64,000 nucleotides of DNA from Hypericum androsaemum (Eukaryota; Streptophyta; Magnoliopsida; Malpighiales; Hypericaceae): positions 1,674,001-1,738,000 of the forward strand of contig OZ023185.1 in the NCBI GenBank assembly GCA_963995505.1, in the 5' to 3' direction. Shown here one piece after another: positions 449 to 45,602 of this stretch. A program made the translations under genes and the position numbers. The notes under the pieces were generated by a model, which did no database searches, was not told the origin of the DNA, and worked only from the letters and a program-made list of their open reading frames with translations. Positions within the stretch are counted from its first letter, which is position 1; every line of letters begins with the position of its first letter.

Positions 449-670
449 GGGTTTTTTTCCTGAATGGTATTACTATTCACCATTTTTTGTGAAAAAAGCG
501 TCCGATTTGAAAGTATTGCGGGGACGGTGTCCACGTGGCACGGAGGCCGAAAAAAGTCGGATCTTGGGCCAAGATCTGACTTTTTTTGTCGGATGACCAA
601 GATCCGACCGTTTTTGTCGGATGACCAAGATCCGACTTTTTCTGTCGGATTTTGGTCGATAATCCTATCC
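449..670 (+). repeat. Left terminal inverted repeat of the MULE
   Basis: About 220 bp match the reverse complement of 9821-10070 with few differences. Both ends share a stretch around a GGGGACGGTGTCCACGTGGCA core. The inner part consists of short palindromic units containing GTCGGAT and ATCCGAC (for example 560-650), so the TIR itself is subrepetitive. The right copy is slightly longer because it has more of these units. Confidence 0.9.
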
Positions 671-901
671 GCTATAAAGTGGATTTTCGAAGGATATCGA
701 GATCCAACTATAACAAGATCCAACAAAAAAAGTCGGATTTCGGTCGGTATAAACACCAAAATCTGACTTTTTCCCCGCTCCCCGCCCCCCGCCCCCCGCC
801 CCCGCTCCCCGCTCCGGCTCGCCCGCCTCTCGGTCCGGCCCCCGACGTCGTATTAGGTAAATTTTTTAATTAGTTAATTTTTTAATTAGTTAATTGTGAA
901 T

Positions 902-985
902 GTTAGTTAATTGGTAAATTGGTGATGTTAGTTAATTGGTTAATTGTTGATGTTAGTTAATTGGTTAATTGTTGATGTTGGTTAA
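902..985. repeat. 25-bp tandem repeat array (GTTAGTTAATTGG type)
   Basis: Three units start at 902, 927 and 952, followed by a partial fourth. Each is 25 bp, built from GTTAGTTAATTGGTTAATTG plus GTTGAT-like ends. It is subterminal inside the MULE, between the left TIR and the PMD gene. Confidence 0.85.
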
Positions 986-1095
986 TTGTAATTTGTAGAT
1001 AATTGGTTAAAAAAAATTTGGTCCGAATGGTGCGACCAAAATTTTGGTCTGACCGGTCTGGCCAAAAAATTGATCAGACCAAATTGACCAATTTA

Positions 1096-1220
1096 TGGTC
1101 CGACCGGTTTGACCGAAAAATGGTACGACCAGTTTGACCGAAAGATGGTCCGACCAGTTTGACCGAAAGATGGTCCGACCAGTTTGACCGAAAGATGGTC
1201 CGGCCGGCCAGTGTGACCAA
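1096..1220. repeat. 25-bp tandem repeat array (TGGTCCGACC type)
   Basis: Units start at 1096, 1121, 1146, 1171 and 1196, each TGGTCCGACCAGTTTGACCG plus AAAGA or a close variant. The period is 25 bp, the same as the unrelated array at 902. Similar GACCGGTCCGACC-rich sequence recurs in inverted orientation at about 9270-9490 near the other end of the element, so this is a subterminal repeat of the MULE. Confidence 0.85.
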
Positions 1221-1407
1221 AATAAGGTCTGAGTGGTTTGACCGTTAAACAATGTGACCGTAATATGGTCTGTAATAACGCTATTTTAATTAATTTTTTG
1301 ATTAATGTTCTAATTGTTCAATGTTTAACATTGTTGGATTTGCTAAGTTTGTTAATATATTGGTAAGTTAATATAATGTTCTAATATGTCTATTGTGTTG
1401 TTTAGAT

Positions 1408-4299
1408 ATGGATGCACAGCCATACGGGCATCTTCTAGGGAATGGAGGACCCTTAGATACGTCGGTATTAGTGCACCAGGATGTGCACCGTTCTCAGGAC
1501 GTGTGGAACCGTGAGGTTCGTGAAGGGATTAATGATAATCAGGACACATTGTTGAAGATACACCGACGGAAATGGACGGTGTCTCATGTGCAGAACGAGG
1601 CCTTTATAGCCTATATGAAGGAGGCAGGTTTCTGGGATGTGTGGTGTATTGGCTGGGTCGTTCTCGAAACAGCATTTGTTACAGCCTTGGTGGAGCGGTG
1701 GCGGCCCGAGACCCATACGTTCCATATGCCTGTGGGTGAGATGACAGTTACTCTTCAGGACATTGCTGTGTTGTTCGGGCTTCCTATCGATGGTCACCCA
1801 GTAACTGGGTTGCAGACACCTCCTGATTGGCACGAGTTCTGCGTACGCCTATTTGGCAGTAACCCGGCAGATACCCCTGGAATGGTTTGGAAAAACCAAA
1901 TTGCCCTTAAATGGTTCGAGGACCATTTTGACCCTGCTACTATCCCAATTGATGCTGGTGATGAGGTCGTAAAACGATATGTTCGAGCGAACATATTGCG
2001 ACTTATCGGATGCATTCTTTTTCCCGAGTCTAGTGATGCCAGGGTGAACACATACTGGTTGCCACTTCTAGAGAATGTAGAGGCAATTGGTTCTTACAGC
2101 TGGGGTAGTGCGTGTTTGTCACACACGTACAGCCATTTATGTAGAGCCACAAGCTCGACACGTTCACTTATTGCCGGGGCGATGACGCTAGTATGTATGT
2201 GGGCTTGGGAACGGATCATCCCAAATCGTCCGGTTTTGTTAAATCCGGCAGTGCAACAACCTGGGCAAGCACTGGGCATCAGGTACAAATTATTACTTAA
2301 TGCGCTGTAGCCGCTGATTAACCTTATAGACTTGACGTGATATTTTTATGTCACTGTGCAGGTGGAGTGGAAAATTTAACAGAGCGGCCAGCAAAAAAAT
2401 AACAACCGTATCTGTTTACAGACGCAGGTTGGATGAGCTTAGAGAATCAGATGTAAGTAATTTGTTTATTAAATTTTAATGAATAGTTTTGACTTAAATC
2501 ATACTGTGTTGCATACATATAACCATGACCATTTGGACGAGCTACGACTGTGTGCATTTGTTACAGGTTGTATGGATGCCGTATAACGACGAGATTCTTA
2601 GCAATCTCCCGACAATATGCCATCGTGATTGTGGCTTATGGTTGGCACGAGTCCCGTTGATATGCTTTTTGCATGTGGAGTGGCATTATCACGATCGGGT
2701 GTTACGACAGTTCGGATTACTCCAGGGTATTTCGGCTAACCCTGAGATCGATGAGGCGACACATAGTGCGGTGGATGGTCGGGGTCAGGCTGGCCAAAAT
2801 TGGAATGCTATTTACGAAGGCCATGTGAAGATCTGGGTGGAATTTCGGACAAGATATGTGTATCACGGAGTACCTATATCGCCGTATATCCATTATCATG
2901 ATGGATATATGGATTGGTACAGGAAGATTACTCGGCGATTCATCAGCCCTGCTAGCGCAATGTTACACATGAGTGTAAGTCAATTTAGCTATGTTAAATA
3001 AAGATGTTGTCTATTTTAATTTTAATAGCGATGTTCCACAATGCTAATGATAATAAAATTTTATTTGTAGGCAGATGTTGTTGAGCATATACGCCACAGG
3101 TCTTCAGACATTTCAGAAATTCAGAATTTGTCGCAGGTTGCACTTGGGTTCGCCGGCGAGCAAAGACGGTACCTAGGTCTCCGCGACAGCCAGCCACCTG
3201 TGGGACTGGCGGAGCACATGACATACGATCTTCCTCAATCAGAGAGGGTATCTGTCGTGAGACGCAAAACCACCCTTTTCAACAAGCGGCAACCAATACC
3301 CCGGCCTGAGCCCGTACCTGGTTATCAAGTGGAGCCCATGGTCTGGGAAGATTATCGGTCGAGATCGCAGATTCCAGCAAACACAGTGACGTCTCTCAGC
3401 ATGGATACCTCCGCCTCTCATCCATTCTCCCAGCACACAGATTTTGGCACCCCAGGCTCCGCTTCCCAGCCGTCCCACCAGCACTCGAGTTACGGCCTAG
3501 CCCACACTGGGGTGCCGCATTCCCAGCTGTTTACTCCCCCTAGGCAGAGGTATTTGTTTATCTTAATTTGTGGTATTAATTATGAATTTTATTATAATAT
3601 GTTCAATTGATTTGATTTCATTATTATATAAATTTTTGGGTTTGTTATTAGGGGTATTGTCTTTGGAGACGGTACAACGGCAGCTAGGTCTGTGCAGCCG
3701 TTTTCTTACGGACTGGGCCCTTCCGGATCGGGTTTCGGCGTTGCCCCCTCCGCTGCTCATCCATTATTCAGGGAAAATATATTTGGTTGGCCCCAAACTG
3801 GGGCTCATACGTCCGACACGCAGTCCAGTTTTTGTTTGACCCGGTCTGGTGTACAGACATCCCAACTATTTGAGACACCTACACAGAGGTTGGTTCTCTA
3901 CAATTTGGTGTGTGTAAATTATGAATTTTATTTAAAAATTTTGAATTGATTGTATGGCTTTATTGTGTTGATAACATAATTTGTTGATTTTGATAAATTT
4001 GTATGATATTTTATAATAGGACTTCGCCACGTGATACTACAACTCATGGTAGTGGTGACTCTTCATTTGACGATCCAACCGATTTTGAGGATGAAGAAAT
4101 ACCTCTGGTCCGGCGTCAGCCTAATCGGGGAGCTAGAGAGGCTGGTGTGCGATGTTTTACAGGAGGATACCTGAATGTGTCTGGAAAGGGAAAGGGGAAG
4201 GCGAATGCTCACGCAGATAAGCATCAAAAGGAGAAGCCTCAGAAGAAAGAAGAAGTAGTTTATGCTTCTGTACTAGACATTCGTTGGATGCTTTTATGA
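1408..4299 (+). CDS. Plant mobile domain (PMD-C, MAIN/MAIL-like) protein encoded by the MULE
   Basis: I join six exons: 1408-2282, 2362-2452, 2567-2974, 3071-3549, 3652-3888 and 4020-4299. All junctions are GT/AG and in phase, giving 789 residues ending at TGA 4297-4299. The start ATG follows a TTTAG acceptor-like sequence, so an untranslated first exon is likely. The first ~460 residues show the plant mobile domain pattern: AFVTALVERWRPETHTFHMP, TVTLQDIAVLFGLPIDG, TYWLPLLENV, VYRRRLDELRESD and VVWMPYND, then a Trp/His-rich block. Exons 4-5 are a low-complexity Ser/Pro/Gly/Gln tail, and exon 6 ends in a Lys-rich segment. In Arabidopsis, MAIN and MAIL1 act in the nucleus with the phosphatase PP7L in silencing and gene expression. 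The reading frame is intact, so this copy could be expressed. Its role in the element is inferred. Confidence 0.85.
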
Positions 4300-4555
4300 C
4301 TGTATTAACTTCACTTTTTTATGATTTGTGTTTTAGTTCTCGAAACTTTTCAAACGTTATACCTTTCTAGATAAGTATGCCGTCTAGATATTAAACAAAG
4401 TACGATATAAGGAAATACGACATGACAAAACTAAGAAGTGCAATACTAAAATAGGATGACAACAATCTGAAATAACAGATAAAAAAAATGTCTTTATGTT
4501 TCTCAACACGTTGTCACAATTCTCATCAGAATTCCCGGTAGGGACATATTTGCCA

Positions 4556-6287
4556 CTATTCCTTGAAAACTCGTTTAACATTCTCGTGATCAACACTGAA
4601 ATGTATTCGATTTTCTTCATACGAGACATAAATCTGTTCAAAAAATACTTAATTAGGTCAATGATTATATTAAAATAATTTACTGACGACGATGTAATGA
4701 TAATATAAGCTTACATCTTTCACTAGCAACACACATCCATCACAATAGGTACTCTCAATGTCTTGTAAACTCCCCGTGATTTCGCCAGTAGGATCCTTCA
4801 TAAATTTATAGATATGAAGTCTTTGATAATTAAAAAATATGATTAAGAAATAAATAATACATTATATTATAATACCTGAAAAACTGCTCGGAAACTATTG
4901 CCGTATACATGTTTCTTCTTTTTCACGTACAGAACCATCTGCAAGTCTCTTAGTTAACAATAACATTACTTGCAAATTACAAAATTTTCATATATGTACA
5001 AATGTTACCTGTGGAATTGTGATGCTTTCAGAGATTGTTTTTACATCCTCAATAGATACTCCATCAACGTTAGCTCCATACATCAAACCTAAAAAATTTA
5101 AAAATTAGATACTCCATAAATATAAGTAACAAGTATGTATAAGTATTTTCGTAATACCGTGAGATAGAACAAATTCAATAGCTGTTGTCCATGGTTCATT
5201 GTTGAAAATGTCATTGGCTTTGCGGTCTGCTTCAGCTCGTATGGCTTTCCTTCGAAGGGCTGATTTAGCTTCAGCTTCCTTTTTATGCAGCTCTAACCTC
5301 TTTTGTTCTTGGAGCCACTCAAAGGCCTCTGAGCCATATAGTGCCTTCAAATCGGCACCACGTCCCTCAGGATATGGTGCTGGAGGATAAGGACGACGAC
5401 CATCATAGGATGGTGCTGGACGAGTTTGTTCTTGGGAATCTTCATCAGATTCTCCATTTTTCTTGAACACTTTGACCACGTTCTCATCAGTAATGCTAAA
5501 TAATTTGTTGTTCGGGTATGGGGACGAGTCAACTTTTACCTGTTGAAGAACCAGAAAATCAGTAAACAACTATCTGGGACTATTGAGAAAAAAAAAGGAT
5601 ATGCTCACATTTTTAAAATACAACACACATCCACCTTCAACAAGACCGGTAGAGTCATTTATGGTACCAGTAATACTGCCTGTAGAATCCTGTAATATAT
5701 TAAAAGTTTAAAAAATTTCTCACATAACATAAATATGTAAGAATAAATAAAATTCTTTTAATTGTACCTTTAATGTCGCAAGTGCGCCAATTCCGACACG
5801 CTGAAAATGGGTCACCTCTACAACCATCTACAAGAAAATACAAAATACTTGTTATAAAATTGACTATGATGCTAACTCAAATTAAAGGATAATGTAAAAT
5901 TTCTTACCGACATAACTGTAGTACCACTATAGGTATTTTTGAAGCTCTGAATACTTGTCCCTTTAAAACAGGTTCCTATCATCATCCCTGTAAAATAAAT
6001 TAAAATTTAATAAAAATATTATGTGATCCAATATAGAAATACGGAATACCTTCAACTGTCAGAAAGTCCATGGCTCTACTCCACGGTTCTGGATCTCGCT
6101 TGACAAGCTTGTAATAACAGTTGCTTTTGGTAGGTTTCTGAGGAGGGACTTCTGATCTATCGTTGGATGGCCTCTGTAATCGTTTGAAAATATACCCAAA
6201 CTTAGAACCACATAGAGCATTCCAATCGATTTGAGGATGCTCCGGCTCTTCGTCATCATGTGCGATTGGCTCTTTGCCCTTTGCCAC
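4556..6287 (-). CDS. Protein with two tandem HROB-like OB-fold modules, encoded by the MULE (5' end unresolved)
   Basis: Nine minus-strand exons join with GT/AG sites and consistent phase: 6287-6050, 5987-5908, 5827-5768, 5689-5609, 5539-5158, 5088-5009, 4938-4876, 4795-4715 and 4633-4556. They give about 380 residues ending at TAG 4556-4558. Module 1 has LATLKDSTGSITGTIND, GGCVLYFKNV and LFSITDENVVKVF. Module 2 has FRAVFQDPTGEITGSLQD, DGCVLLVKD and HFSVDHENVKRVF. This order (LKDPTG.I.GT, G.VLLL..V, L.IT..NVVKVF) is that of the HROB/C17orf53 OB fold (DUF4539), which in animals recruits the MCM8-MCM9 helicase in recombination repair. Each module is preceded by a similar segment (PWSRAMDFLTVEG, PWTTAIEFVLSHG). 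A charged coiled-coil-like stretch joins them. The first exon has no in-frame ATG and an in-frame TGA lies just upstream of GTG 6287, so an upstream exon or a frameshift is missing from this model. The family call rests on motif order only. Confidence 0.6.
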
Positions 6288-6475
6288 TTCTCCTCATCGG
6301 CACACCTGAACAATTATGACAATAAACATATACATAAAATGTGTAATGCGTCATTATTCTGCTAAGATAGAGTAACTTAAACTTCAGACTGTTACAAAGA
6401 AACTCAACACAACTCACATAGAGTTTCACAAAATATTACAAAGTACAATCCTTTCAGTTCAAAATTAATTACAAT

Positions 6476-9160
6476 TCAACGTCCACGACGGCGTCTACTC
6501 GTACTTGCCCCTACGGATACAGCTGCCGCTTTAGCTGCTTTAGCCGCTCTTGCCGCCGCAACTGCTCTTATATTAGTACAATTGGCTTTTGTGTGACCCC
6601 TTGTTTTACAGAGCGTACAACGGACGAAAGGCACTGTATCCATTTCATTATGTATGCGCTTCCGTGGCTGTCCTCTACCCCTCGCTAATCTTTCATCTGG
6701 AATGAGCCTTACAACCGTTGGATCTTCAGGATACGGCCAATATTTAGGATTGCCCAGAGGAACAAACTTCAGTTGGTAGCAAGCTTGCATGGTTTTCAGG
6801 CGATAATATTTATCCACAAATATCTTGTAATTGATGCCAAGTTCAGTACAACACGCCATCACATGTGAGCACGGATAGTGGTAAGCCTGAAATTTTCCGC
6901 AGCCACAAAATCCAGTGGAAAGATTAACTGAATGCTTTCTGTCCCCCTTTTGTCTTCTCATATCGTACCCAGTGCGAACTTCGTACGATCCAACTGTACT
7001 GTCAGAAACTCGCACTCTATGTCCATTGGCCTTTCACTCCCACCGCTCCAACCTGTTTAGGAGCTTCTGTGACATCAATATTTTGCCAGTACAGCTCTCT
7101 TTCATACACTTAGTTGATCTCTCTTCAAAATATTCGGTTAGCTTGTTAAATGTCTCTGCCACCAAGGCCGTCACCGGTAAACGACGAACTTTTTTGAAGA
7201 TCATATTTACGCACTCGGCAAAATTCGTCGTCATGTTACCATATCGGCGTCCGCCATCCCACGCTAAGCTCCACTTGGGCAATTCCTGTTCATACATCCA
7301 GTTGAAGACCTCCTGGTCGACATTCCATATTTCTCGCATGTTAGCTTCCAACTTCCACAGTTGAGCTTGCATTCCTACAACCAACATAGTAAAAATATTA
7401 AATGTGGAGTAACAACTTGTAAAATAGTTTTAGACTACAAAACATTTGTGCATGTCACCTGCAATCTTCATGACATTCCTCATGGCGTCGTTTTTGAAGT
7501 GTTTGTTAAGATTGCTTGCTACGTGTCGAAGACAATATCGATGGGCGGTATCACTGTCTTCTCCCCAACCATACTCCGTATCCATTGCCTTTAATATGCC
7601 AGCATGTCGATCAGAAATAACACATATTCCATGTCGGCCAGCCGTGACGTGCTTCCAGACTTGTTTCATGAACCACGGCCAACTATCCGTGTTCTCACCC
7701 TCTACCAGAGCAAATGCTATTGGAATTATAGCATTATTACCATCAATTGCAGTGGCGATCAGGAGGACATGCTTGTATTTTCCATACAAGAACGTTCCAT
7801 CAATCTCCAAGACAGGCATGCAATGTTTGAAAGCTTCAATGCAAGGCTTGAAGCTCCAAAAAACTCGCTTAAAGATCTTTGTTCCAGGCATCAGTGCTTC
7901 CACGTAATGGTCGCAACCAGGGAGGGTGTGATAATATTCCCATTCAACAACAGTTCCAGGATTATTTGCCTTGCATGCTGCAAACCATTGCGGAAGGCGA
8001 TTGTAAGATTCTTGCCAATCCCCCCATAAATCTTGAAACGCCTTCTCTTTTGCCCACCAAGTCTTCGTATACGAGGGTCTAAACTTCATATGGTCGTGGA
8101 TCTCTGACCTTAAAGTGGCCACACGAATTTCTGGTTGTTCCTCTACTCGTTTCTTAATAATTTGTGCAATGAAAGCAGAAGTGAGTTGTTTATGATCCTG
8201 CGACTTTCGTAGGCGACCACAGGTATGGGGGTAGGTGTGTTTCACGATTTTCCATGGACTGAAAAGTGTGCCCCTTCTTTCCTGTGAGACACGGATCTCC
8301 CATTTGCAATCATCCGTCTCCCATTTTTTACACTTCACAGAAAAAGTTTCTGGCCTTGTTTCTTTTTGGACAAACTCACGCCCATCGTTCATTACGAACG
8401 CCTCGATCTCCCTCTTTGCATCAAATTTGCTCTTCCAAATCGTACCCTCTTTCAACAAACCAGAACAACTTCCATCTATTGCTCGGTCGCAATCCCATTC
8501 TTCACCATAAACAGTCATCGATGATTGTTCACCGGGATCAGTTATAGCGAGTTCACCGTATTGTTGTTCTCGGTATTGTTGTTCCTCTTCTTCTACTACT
8601 TCTTCTTCATCTTCGTCTTCTTCTGCTTCGTCTTCGTCTTCTTCTGCTTCGTCTTCGTCTTCTACTTCTTCTGCTTCGTCTTCACGAACAAAATTGTATG
8701 TGGCATATGGACCCGTCTCTCTAGGATCATTTTCAAACCAATCAAATATTGGTTCATGAGCAACATCCATCCCCGTTGACGTACCAGCTTCAACGACAAA
8801 CGGGTTGTAATTATTAACCCTCTTTTCCACAATGATTGTAAGCTTAATCTCCTTCACCATTGGTCCAAAGAAGTTAATCATGGTCTCCAGCATTATCCTA
8901 ACATCTTCATCGTCGTTAATAAACATTGGACCAAATTGTCCTCTTCCAAATGGACATCTAAATATCAATGGCCCAAATTCTTCATTTGGACCTATTGGGA
9001 TCTTTTCGTTAACTTTTTTCTGCAAGATATTGTATCTAACAAATGCTGCATGAAACTTCAACTTCTCTTTCCCACCACCTTGGTAATCAAAACCGGTTTC
9101 ATTATTGTTGAAAATTACTCCATCGTATTTCAACTTTATTCTTATAACCCGGTTAGCCAT
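6476..9160 (-). pseudogene. MULE (mudrA-type) transposase, broken by one in-frame TGA
   Basis: Exon 1 is 9160-7459, the intron 7458-7375 (GTGACA..TTGTAG) and exon 2 7374-6476, giving 866 codons. The N-terminal region is a typical plant MULE leader followed by an acidic run (about residues 155-195) and a zinc-finger-like DNA-binding region (WKSKFDAKREIEAF, TYPHTCGR). The DDE domain has D454 (VLEIDGTFL), D517 (CVISDRHAGI) and E621 (NFAECVNMIF). After it come a SWIM finger (C724, C726, C736, H738) and a CCHC knuckle (CTLCKTRGHTKANC). Codon 681 (7034-7036) is TGA between the DDE domain and the SWIM finger. The frame continues unbroken on the far side, and CGA to TGA by CpG decay would explain it. 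It cuts and reinserts the element in the nucleus if functional. Unless the stop is read through, this copy makes a protein without its C-terminal zinc motifs. Confidence 0.92.
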
Positions 9161-9269
9161 TATGAATACTACAACAAAAGAAAACAGTATGCAATTCTAT
9201 ATTAGCAACACAAAACATAATTTATATTAACGAAAATATCATATAAACATACATTCTTCTCCATCAATT

Positions 9270-9490
9270 TTTTGGTCCGACCACCTTAAGAACCAGATGA
9301 AATTTAATCGGACTGGCAGGGTGGTCACTTTTTGTACTCGACCATCCGGAATTTACCAAGAAAAAATTCACAATCTGACCGGTCGTTTCAGTCGGATTGG
9401 TCAGACTAACCAGACCGGTCCGACCGACCAGACCGATCCGACCGACCCGACCGGTCCGACTCATTAAACCGGTCTGGCCATTGGGGTTGG
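9270..9490. repeat. GACCGGTCCGACC-rich subterminal region
   Basis: Short imperfect repeats of GACCGACC, ACCGGTC and TTGGTCAG fill about 200 bp between the transposase 5' end and the right TIR. They resemble the 1096-1220 array read in the opposite direction. Such arrays are commonly transposase-binding regions, but that function is not demonstrated by the sequence. Confidence 0.55.
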
Positions 9491-9508
9491 TCAGTTTATA
9501 AAATCCGC

Positions 9509-9740
9509 ACACCCACAAAATTTTAAACAATCAGATATCACACTCAAAAAATAGAAGGAATTAATAATTTCAAAGCTAAAATATACTAATTATTTTTAAT
9601 TAATGAACAAACTCTACATATATACACCCACAAAATTTTAAACAATCAGATATCACACTCAAAAAATAGAAGGAATTAATAATTTCAAAGCTAAAATATA
9701 CTAATTATTTTTAATTAATGAACAAACTCTACATATATAC
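9509..9740. repeat. Perfect 115-bp tandem duplication
   Basis: The block at 9509-9623 is repeated immediately at 9624-9738 with no difference I can see. Each copy includes AATCAGATATCACACTCAAA and ends with CTCTACATATAT. It lies just inside the right TIR of the MULE. Perfect identity implies a recent duplication. Confidence 0.9.
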
Positions 9741-9820
9741 CAAAATATTAAAGTAAATTAATTTACCTGATTTTGGGCAGGGTCTTGGTCATATCCGAAA
9801 TCTCCTATTCAGATTTCGGA

Positions 9821-10070
9821 TATGGTTTATCGACCAAGATCCGACAAAAATGGTCGGATCTTGGACCAAGATCCGACTTTTTTTGTCGGATATATCATCC
9901 GACTAAAAAAGTCGGATCTTGGTCATCCGACAAAAAAAGTCGGATCTTGGTCCAAGATCCGACTTTTTTCGGCGTCCGTGCCACGTGGACACCGTCCCCG
10001 CAATACTTTCAAATCGGATGTTTTTTTCACAAAAAATGGTGAATAGTAACACCACTCAGAAAAAAAAACC
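9821..10070 (-). repeat. Right terminal inverted repeat of the MULE
   Basis: This is the inverted partner of 449-670. It contains extra palindromic GTCGGATCTTGG / CCAAGATCCGAC units relative to the left copy. It ends at 10070, next to the CTAGTATTC duplication. Confidence 0.9.
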
Positions 10071-10079
10071 CTAGTATTC
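10071..10079. repeat. Right 9-bp target-site duplication of the large MULE
   Basis: CTAGTATTC is identical to 440-448 and abuts the end of the right terminal repeat. Confidence 0.9.
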
Positions 10080-41728: not shown

Positions 41729-41756
41729 ATCGTAAGACGAGATTGTGTACTTGAAG

Positions 41757-44700
41757 ATGGCATCGACAAGCTCAGCACCAGTGCCAGCGGTCCCGGGAAC
41801 TGCCCACGCCGAAAGGCCGGCCAAGTTCAACGGTACCGAATTCAAGAGGTGGCAACAGAAGATGTTGTTCTACCTGACGATGCTCAACCTGGTCCGATTC
41901 TTGAAGGAAGAGGCTCCGAAGGTAGCAGAAAATGAGGCAGATCAACAGAAGATCAACGCCCTCGATGCATGGAGTCACAGCGACTTCCTATGCCGGAACT
42001 ACGTCCTGAATGGACTAGACGACACGCTCTACAACGTCTACGCGGAAGCTAAGACCGCTAAAGAGCTGTGGAGTTCACTCGAGAAGAAGTACAAAACAGA
42101 GGATGCCGGGACGAAGAAATTCATCGTCGGACGATTCCTCGACTTCAAGATGGTGGACTCCAAGAAGGTCATCGACCAAGTGCAAGAGTTGCAGTTGATC
42201 CTTCACGAGATCCAAGCCAAAGGGATGCAACTCAGCGAGTCCTTCCAAGTAGCTGCTATGATCGAGAAGCTCCCCCCGCTGTGGAAGGATTTCAAAAGCT
42301 ACCTCAAGCACAAGAGGAAGGACATGGGCCTAGAAGACCTGATTGTAAGACTGAGGATCGAGGAGGACAACCAAAAATCCAAAGTCAAGCAAGGCAAGGC
42401 CAACTCTGAGATCACAGTGCACCTCGCTGAGGGAAAAGGTGGCAAGAAGAGGAAGAAGTCTGAGGATAAGCAGAAGGAGCAAAAGCCCAAGAAGAAAAAG
42501 ATCAAGGGTGACTGCTACAACTGCGGGAAACCCGGCCACATGGCTAAGGACTGTCGCCAGCCGAAGAAAGACCAAGGAAAGGCTAACCTGGCTGAAGACT
42601 TGTCCCAGATGGATCTGTCAGCTGTAGTGTTTGAAGCCAACCTGGTGGACAATCCGAGAGAGTGGTTCGTAGACACTGGAGCTACCCGCCACATCTGCTC
42701 GGACAAGGAGATGTTCTCGAACTATATCCCGATCACCGGCCGAAAGCTGTTCATGGGAAACTCCGCAACGTCCAAGATCGTTGGTCTGGGAAAGGTGGTC
42801 CTGAAGCTGACCTCAGGAAAGGAGCTGACCCTCAAGGATGTGCTGCATGTCCCGGACATCCGCAAGAACTTAGTCTCTGGCTCACTGTTAAGCAAATCCG
42901 GTCTTAAGCTTGTATTTGAGGCTGATAAGTTTGTACTGACCAAAGCGGGTCAATTCATAGGAAAGGGTTATCTAGAAAGGGGGCTATTTAAGATGAATGT
43001 AATAACTGTACATCGCACCTTTAACGGTGAAAATAAAGTTAATGCTTCTTCTTACTTGGCCGAGTGTTCTAATTTATGGCATGGTAGATTAGGACACGTA
43101 AATCTAAACTCGCTAAGAAAGTTAGTATGTTTAAATTTATTACCGAATCTAGAGTTCAACACATCCGATAAATGTGAAGTATGTGTGGAGGCTAAAATGA
43201 CCAAAGCACCATTCCATTCAGTGGAAAGAAGTACTACGCCTTTAGAATTAATTCATACGGACACTTGCGATATGAAACACGTGCAAACTAAAGGCGGGAA
43301 GAAATTCTTCATAACGTTTATCGATGATTGCACGAGATACTGTTACGTATATCTCCTAAGGGGCAAAGACGAAGCTCTTGATGCTTTTAAGAGATATAAG
43401 AATGAGGTTGAAAATCAACTCAGCGTGAAAATCAAAATGATCTGAAATGATCGAGGAGGAGAATATGTAGCTCCGTTTGAGGAACTCTGTCAAGAACATG
43501 GCATTATTCATCAGACGACTGCTCCATATTCACCTCAATCGAATGGCGTAGCTGAACGCAAAAATCGAACTCTTAAGGAGATGATGAACGCTATGTTGAT
43601 TAGCTCGGGCTTACCCCAGAACATGTGGGGGGAAGCTGTGCTCTCAGCTAACCACATTCTAAACAAATTGCCACACAAGAAAAGGAATAAAACCCCATAT
43701 GAACTATGGAAAGGAAGGAAGCCTTCCTACGGTTACCTTAAAGTGTGGGGGTGCCTAGCAAAGGTCGAAGTACCTAAGCCTAAGCAGGTGCGAATAGGAC
43801 CCAAGACCATTGATTGCATCTTTATCGGATATGCGCAAAATAATAGTGCTTATCGATTCTTGGTGCATAAATCTGAAACCCTGAGATAAACACGGGAATG
43901 GTCATAGAATCAAGGAACGCAATATTTTTTGAAAATAGCTTTCCTAATAAGGAAAGAAAGGAAGCAAGTCCAAAGAAAAGGGCTCACGAGACTACGCAAG
44001 GGTCAAATCAGAAAGATGATGAACCTAGACGTAGTAAACGGACGAAGGTAACCAAATCTTTCGGTCTGGACTATCTAACCTATGCGTTAGAAGATGAACC
44101 CAGGACAATCCAAGAGGCATTGTCCAGTCCAGATGCTCCTCTCTGGAAGGAAGCTATCAATAGTGAGATAGAATCCATTATGCAAAACCACACGTGGGAA
44201 ATCGTGGATCTCCCACCGGGCTGCAAACCTTTGGGATGCAGGTGGATCCTAAAAAGGAAATACAAAGCTGATGGATCAATCGACAAGTACAAAGGGATAT
44301 AATTTCTTTGACACGTATTCACCGGTCAGAAGAATCACATCGATTAGAGTACTCATAGCTGTTGCAGCACTCTATAACCTCGAGATCCACCAAATGGATG
44401 TAAAAACAGCTTTCCTAAATGGAGAACTGGAAGAGGAGATATACATGGAGCAACCTGAAGGGTTTGTGGCTCCCGATCAAGAGCATAAAGTATGCCGACC
44501 AGTCAAGTCACTATATGGGCTAAAACAAACGCCGAAACAATGGCACGAGAAATTTGACAGAACAATATTGTCAAATGGATTTAAGATCAATGAGTGCGAT
44601 AAATATGTTTACATTAAGGGCACACCTGAAGCTTACGTAATTGTATGTCTCTACGTAGATGACTTACTAATTACGGAAAGCAATAAAGAAGTTATTGTGA

Positions 44701-45602
44701 AAACTAAGAACATGTTAAAGAACCACTTTGACATGAAAGATATGGGTCTGGCAGACGTCATACTAGGAATAAAAATTTCTAGGAAAGCTGACAAAATTAT
44801 CTTGACACAATCCCACTACGTGGAAAGCGTGCTCAAGAAGTTTGAAGCTTTCGACAAACCTCTGGTTAAGACTCCAGTAGATTTGAATCTACACTTAGCC
44901 AAGAATCGAGGGGACCCAGTATCGCAACTGAAGTATGCGCAAATTATCGGGAGCTTGATGTATTTAACAAACTGCACTCGTCCTGATATTGCGTACTCAG
45001 TTAGTAAACTTAGTAGATTCACAAGTAATCCAGGGAAGGATCACTGGCTAGCTCTAGAAAGGGTTTTACGGTATTTAAAACATACCATAAGCCATGGCAT
45101 ACATTATGCTAAATATCCAGCTGTATTAGAAGGATACAGTGACGCAAACTGGATATCAGACACTAAGGACTCCAAATCCACGAGTGGATACGTATTCACC
45201 ATAGGAGGAGGAGCTGTGTCTTGGAAGTCCTCTAAACAAACGTGCATAGCTCGATCCACCATGGAGTCGGAGTTTATAGCGCTAGATAAAGCTGGGGAAG
45301 AAGCTGAATGGCTCAGAAACTTCCTAGAGGATATTCCGTGCTGGAGTAAACCAGTGCCTCCCGTATTGATACATTGTGATAGCATGTCTGCAATCGGGAG
45401 AGCACAAAGTACATTGTACAACGGAAAGTCTCGACATATCCGTCGGAGACACAATACCGTTAGACAGTTGATCTCTAGTGGGGTGATCACCATTAACTAT
45501 GTAAAGTCCAAGGACAACTTAGCTGATCCTTTTACAAAAGGAATCAATAGAGATCAAATGTACAATGCAGTAAGGGGAATGGGATTAAAATTCACACACT
45601 AA
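41757..45602 (+). pseudogene. Copia gag-pol polyprotein gene with nonsense and frameshift lesions
   Basis: The start ATG 41757 opens [20 protein letters not shown]. Gag has a UBN2-like retrotransposon gag region (residues ~15-200) and a zinc knuckle [14 protein letters not shown]. The protease has [12 protein letters not shown], where the usual DSG is DTG. The GAG-pre-integrase region has [14 protein letters not shown], and the integrase core follows. A TGA at 43443-43445 interrupts the integrase just before NDRGGEY. A one-base frame change occurs near 43885. Near 44290 about ten codons, including the start of the RT finger motif, are missing with a frame change. RT then reads well (YVDDLLI at ~44655), as does RNase H ([19 protein letters not shown]), to the stop at 45600-45602. 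Not functional by itself. Confidence 0.92.

Follow-up and report, generated by a model that had tools for sequence, protein, structure and literature searches.

The pairing of plant mobile domain (PMD) proteins with Mutator-like elements (MULEs) is already known from plants (PMC5418596, PMC6446971). PMD-C proteins fused to MULE transposases occur in several grasses and in Amborella (Ikeda 2017, PMC5418596), and a PMD gene, often in antisense orientation, is reported from most members of several plant MULE groups (Dupeyron 2019, PMC6446971), namely MUDR, MUDRAVI2, MDR, MULE-Monocots and MULE-Solanaceae_1 (PMC6446971; PMC5418596). Ikeda et al. described the function of PMD as yet to be determined and speculated that MULEs turn captured PMDs against silencing (PMC5418596). 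A further comparable system is VANDAL21/Hiun of Arabidopsis (VANA, VANB, VANC), likewise a MULE that has two genes besides its transposase, where VANC proteins carry a DUF1985 domain and bind short motifs that are multiplied in non-coding parts and differ between families (PMC5735166). The 64-kb stretch of Hypericum androsaemum DNA analysed here (the window) contains, at 449-10070, a MULE copy with a PMD gene, a gene for an HROB-type OB-fold protein and a transposase gene. Our preferred reading, to which we give a probability of roughly 55%, is a three-gene MULE with a VANC-like PMD that would bind motifs in the element's own ends, and with the OB protein as an accessory. The features that define the element and its genes are given below.

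440-448, unstranded: left target site duplication (TSD) CTAGTATTC, found from the sequence and by script
449-10070: whole element, a three-gene MULE copy
449-624: left terminal inverted repeat (TIR), containing 28-bp tandem units
1408-4299, + strand: PMD gene, exons 1408-2282, 2362-2452, 2567-2974, 3071-3549, 3652-3888 and 4020-4299
4556-6297, - strand: OB-fold gene with two tandem OB units, nine exons (1-5: 6297-6050, 5987-5908, 5827-5768, 5689-5609, 5539-5158; 6-9: 5088-5009, 4938-4876, 4795-4715, 4633-4556)
6272-6285, - strand: 7-bp tandem duplication in the first OB exon of the window copy, shortly after the OB start, breaking the frame
6476-9160, - strand: MULE transposase gene with a SWIM finger, exons 9160-7459 and 7374-6476
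7034-7036, - strand: in-frame TGA in the transposase gene, from the sequence and copy comparison
9895-10070: right TIR
10071-10079, unstranded: right TSD CTAGTATTC, found from the sequence and by script

The element has TIRs of 176 nt each that are 93% complementary and is flanked on both sides by an exact 9-bp TSD, within the 8-11 bp typical of MULEs, as the sequence-only reading of this DNA had claimed. The Pfam matches that it had proposed were also recovered, together with a SWIM finger. The transposase matched MULE PF10551 (E 8.3e-19, 68.3 bits, cut-off 27.6) and SWIM (E 1.5e-6, 28 bits, cut-off 19.6) and so has both the transposase domain and the zinc finger of a MULE; the PMD protein matched PF10536 (E 1.9e-73), and the OB protein matched HROB PF15072 in two stretches (E 1.4e-15, 57.4 bits, cut-off 30.8). 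The order is PMD (+), OB (-) and MULE transposase (-), and the element therefore resembles the PMD-carrying MULEs in its antisense PMD gene, 9-bp TSD and SWIM finger. All 14 introns of the gene models are GT-AG, and every donor and acceptor is conserved in 19-21 of 21 copies. The earlier reading required correction in three respects: the OB gene contains two tandem OB units, the PMD gene lies on the strand opposite to the other two genes, and the copy is not intact. In addition to the TGA and the 7-bp duplication, the PMD reading frame of the window copy is shifted at its end (789 amino acids (aa), compared with 773-775 aa in other open copies). The first OB exon is 248 nt long in the window, and in the 20 near copies fetched from the genome it is 241 nt in 18, 234 nt in one and missing in one.

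The window element belongs to a high-copy family of three-gene MULEs that has been active recently. In the 385-Mb genome, the left end gave 654 first-look candidates (40 scored), the transposase 1884 (76 scored, matching at 96-100%) and the OB exon 286 (150 scored); among the scored OB-exon matches at least 36, the window included, were 100% identical in protein over the entire exon. The OB exon lay at its expected place in 64 of the 76 transposase matches and 31 of the 40 left-end matches, both of which were chosen independently of OB. The 20 fetched copies were picked by their OB exon, and OB presence among them is not independent evidence; 17 are collinear with the element from ~325 to at least 9190, two of these with an inner gap of ~100 bp. 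Counting the window, PMD was open in 14, OB in 15 and the transposase in 11 of 21 copies, and all three were open in seven, where open means at least 770 (PMD), 360 (OB) or 855 aa (MULE) to the first stop, changed ends being ignored (in two of the seven, L018 and L021, OB has a changed end or its exon is short). Copies that consistently lack PMD or OB, which would have spoken for passive capture, are not the rule; single cases exist, namely the deletion copies L028 (without PMD) and L023 (lacking parts of the OB and transposase genes), and the relative L029, in which no PMD was found.

The same three genes occur in diverged relatives. L030, L031 and L032 retain the order and orientation PMD (forward), OB and MULE (both reverse). 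Compared with L024, PMD/OB/MULE identities are 54/58/59% for L030 and 54/57/70% for L032, and PMD/MULE identities are 57/59% for L031, whose OB model is poor. Their inverted ends measure 333 bp in L031 (93%) and 119 bp in L032 (86%), those of L030 being short and weak, and all three relatives are partly decayed by stops or frameshifts. L034, reached by the HROB search and thus independently of the family, again contains MULE, OB and PMD in this order, with a transposase ~40-45% identical to the queries, and a second HROB-like type of OB gene in between; its two outer genes are truncated by the ends of the fetched stretch. Across the genome, an OB-exon match lies within 8 kb of 52 of the 117 scored PMD matches, and 6 of 40 PF15072 matches have a PMD match within 12 kb, against a mean of 0.30 and a maximum of 4 in 2000 sets of random places; the searches behind these lists yielded 858 candidates for PMD and 298 for PF15072, of which the best 117 and 150, respectively, were scored. 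In a tree with 70 plant homologues, the PMDs from five element rows, which represent four different sequences, formed one group (100/99), and the branching of L024, L030, L031 and L032 matched that in the transposase tree. Therefore, PMD was not acquired anew in each subfamily. The three-gene module is old.

Selection was assessed at two depths. Among 18 near copies including the window (L015, L023 and L028 were dropped), pairwise dN/dS was 0.40 for PMD, 0.47 for OB and 0.39 for MULE, and all stop-making variants (4, 2 and 5, respectively) were singletons. Divergence in introns (0.0154, 0.0126 and 0.0108, the last on 84 bp) exceeded that in exons (0.0119, 0.0084 and 0.0102). Codon models for the deep comparison (PMD from L024, L030, L031 and L032; OB from L024, L029, L030 and L032; MULE from all five) gave omega 0.389, 0.481 and 0.367, probably raised because the tips include decayed copies. 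Twice the log-likelihood gain over omega = 1 was 155 for PMD, 29.5 for OB and 209.5 for MULE, the neutral model being fitted at five fixed kappa values between 1.5 and 4 and the best fit used, and neutrality was rejected for each gene. By these computations, transposase, OB and PMD form a module that is inherited as a whole and kept by purifying selection, in agreement with the earlier proposal that they move as one unit.

The new result for PMD is its predicted fold. When the structure predicted for the PMD exon of the element itself (pLDDT 90.7) was compared with the PDB, the sole significant match was VANC21 on its target DNA, and a second model, begun from the PMD of another plant, agreed on the VANC match; the two alignments have most rows in common and are not fully independent. 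The window PMD is hence predicted to share the fold of VANC21, an anti-silencing protein. Of 60 PMD homologues, 39 gave a weak DUF1985 match (E<=1). The sequence-only reading had suggested that the element could be controlling host silencing and had pointed to the MAIN/MAIL group. The predicted fold supports this in a more specific form, with a putative VANC-like anti-silencer in place of a presumed MAIN/MAIL-like silencer. MAIN and MAIL1, which have a role in silencing and bind PP7L, are themselves PMD proteins (PMC8616336, PMC5418596), so that the element's PMD might act on the MAIN/MAIL1-PP7L pathway, as a decoy or silencer, rather than as a self-specific DNA binder. However, end motifs that differ between families suggest a sequence-specific binder, and we consider action on the host pathway quite unlikely. 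Elsewhere in the genome, eight full-length, stop-free PMD matches, with open frames of 717-864 aa, lie on both strands within ~79 kb (G000:C8:16594889-16673436); they are the strongest of the scored PMD matches and probably the host's own genes.

The end motifs of the window element form two arrays.

556-738: left motif array, seven ATCCGAC/GTCGGAT sites (+ strand at 602 and 630; - strand at 556, 588, 616, 644 and 732)
9391-9963: right motif array, eleven ATCCGAC/GTCGGAT sites

Together, the two arrays contain 18 ATCCGAC sites within 1.87 kb of non-coding sequence at the ends, a tally inflated by TIR symmetry and tandem units and not equal to 18 independent events, and no comparable 7-mer exceeded 9 in 200 Markov replicates. 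The motif was absent from the 7,753 bp between the gene starts, introns included. Of the 20 near copies, 18 were measurable, some with flanks cut by the 10-kb stretch or containing host sequence; all 18 had ATCCGAC in both flanks, and 17 had none between the gene starts. The ends of L030 and L031, which are closely related to each other, contain no ATCCGAC and instead GGTCGAA 12 times each, a motif not found in the window element. As in VANDAL21/Hiun, short non-coding motif arrays therefore appear to differ between families, at least between the window family and L030/L031. An alternative is that the transposase, and not PMD, binds the arrays, the VANC fold of PMD then serving another role. 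Binding of transposases to subterminal sites is known from other DNA transposons. The arrays sit within and beside the TIRs, and they are found at the ends only, whereas VANC21 is located in introns as well (PMC5735166). Conversely, the structure that PMD is predicted to resemble was solved on its own target DNA, and VANC targets are likewise arrayed short non-coding motifs that differ by family (PMC5735166), which makes arrays devoted to the transposase rather unlikely in our view.

The anatomy, the predicted shared fold, the exchange of motifs and the selection on three genes together fit a VANDAL-like, self-specific anti-silencing MULE with an OB accessory. The PMD protein would work like VANC, binding the arrays of short motifs in the non-coding ends of its own element and thereby removing host silencing from its own family, and motif and PMD protein would change together between subfamilies. 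Several results weigh against this reading. The PMD sequence profile found no match in the PDB, the fold would be shared at 10% identity, and a common fold does not establish a common function. In contrast to VANC, the window PMD matches DUF1985 weakly (E 0.18, Pfam), and its anti-silencing role is putative. The top motif of L032, ACCAAGA (9 sites), lies within the Markov range (maximum 9) and is not above chance, and L032 has it in common with the window element (8 sites). Of the three genes, OB shows the highest omega, and neutrality is rejected least strongly for it; PF15072 falls below its cut-off in L032 (26.9 bits) and L030 (13.1). PMD is often found without OB, yet the window lineage holds both: 59 of the 117 scored PMD matches, the eight clustered genes on C8 among them, have neither kind of OB match nearby, and 34 of the 40 PF15072 matches have no scored PMD match within 12 kb. 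L029 has transposase and OB at 82-83% and no PMD found, and L033 has a diverged transposase and two OB genes with no PMD within its 10 kb.

Such cases could also be expected if PMD and OB were pieces of host genes gained by chance in the manner of Pack-MULEs, gene capture being frequent in MULEs (PMC6446971). The window MULE does carry genes related to host gene families. Unlike Pack-MULEs, which lack a transposase and hold fragments without selection, this family has a transposase, and its extra genes are whole, ordered and under selection; the order conserved in diverged subfamilies, omega well below 1 and seven copies with all genes open argue against passive capture, which we regard as highly improbable.

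The OB gene is an apparent departure from VANDAL21/Hiun, in that the middle gene of the window element encodes an HROB-type OB protein. HROB was its sole Pfam match at E<=1, and L029 also exceeded the PF15072 cut-off (54.1 bits), a feature in common with HROB/MCM8IP (C17orf53). Unlike HROB, the window family has two OB units; the unit is doubled in L029 as well, is found once in L030 and in L032, and the two units of L024 are 31% identical to each other. L031 and L032 contain an open stretch that starts with MRRSGK, like the OB proteins of open family copies, and extends to the start of one OB unit. Human HROB/MCM8IP binds single-stranded DNA and RPA1 and is needed chiefly for long-tract gene conversion (PMC7290032). 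A repair role is proposed for the OB protein from its domain, more tentatively than the role of PMD, because restoring the element after a 9.6-kb excision gap would need long-tract synthesis; it may be a single-stranded DNA/RPA-type accessory that aids long-tract repair and re-synthesis at the gap, or integration, and may take the place held by the little-understood VANB/mudrB in other MULEs. Alternatively, it could be a mudrB-like co-factor of integration or expression, mudrB being apparently required for integration in maize (PMC6446971). The HROB match and the known activity of human HROB speak for repair, and we place the co-factor role somewhat short of even odds. OB folds serve many roles. 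The 'unknown ORF' (open reading frame) of MULE-Solanaceae_1 (PMC6446971) may be comparable to the OB gene; the main text of that paper contains no occurrence of OB-fold, HROB, C17orf53 or DUF4539.

A second type of HROB-like OB gene, starting like NWED(Y/F)LQLDS(D/E)DESYYSLSL, adjoins other, diverged MULE transposases (L034:3825-4572, - strand; L033:5427-5876, - strand, and ~6320-7217, + strand, an inverted pair). Some of the repeated PF15072 matches of the genome may be of this type.

Taken together, the predicted VANC fold and the family-specific end motifs turn the speculation of Ikeda et al. (PMC5418596) into a direct test of binding and methylation, and in the conserved OB gene there is a concrete candidate for the little-understood kind of extra gene found in multi-gene MULEs. 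The predicted PMD-VANC fold would also be a structural lead for host MAIN/MAIL proteins. A wider scheme remains doubtful, in which PMDs, VANC anti-silencers and DUF1985 would be one fold family of sequence-specific DNA binders, MULE PMDs in many plants would be self-specific anti-silencers co-evolving with end arrays, host MAIN/MAIL would be relatives of the transposons' escape proteins, and, in the window lineage, PMD would be teamed with an HROB-like OB protein through whose long-tract gap repair the element is restored or spread.

Further repeats lie within the element.

882-1245: two arrays of 25-bp period, the second made of GGTCCGACC-like units
9509-9738: 115-bp tandem pair, both copies identical, adjoining the right TIR

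Two transposase matches elsewhere in the genome (G000:C20:9409252-9410970 and C19:13752833-13754551) have frames of 903 aa, where most other scored copies reach ~585-590 aa; these two may lack the intron or read through it. Outside the element, the window contains two long open frames (569 and 449 aa) at 41736-45602 (+ strand) that resemble copia-type gag-pol, with a CCHC knuckle and integrase- and reverse-transcriptase-like stretches, as judged by eye.

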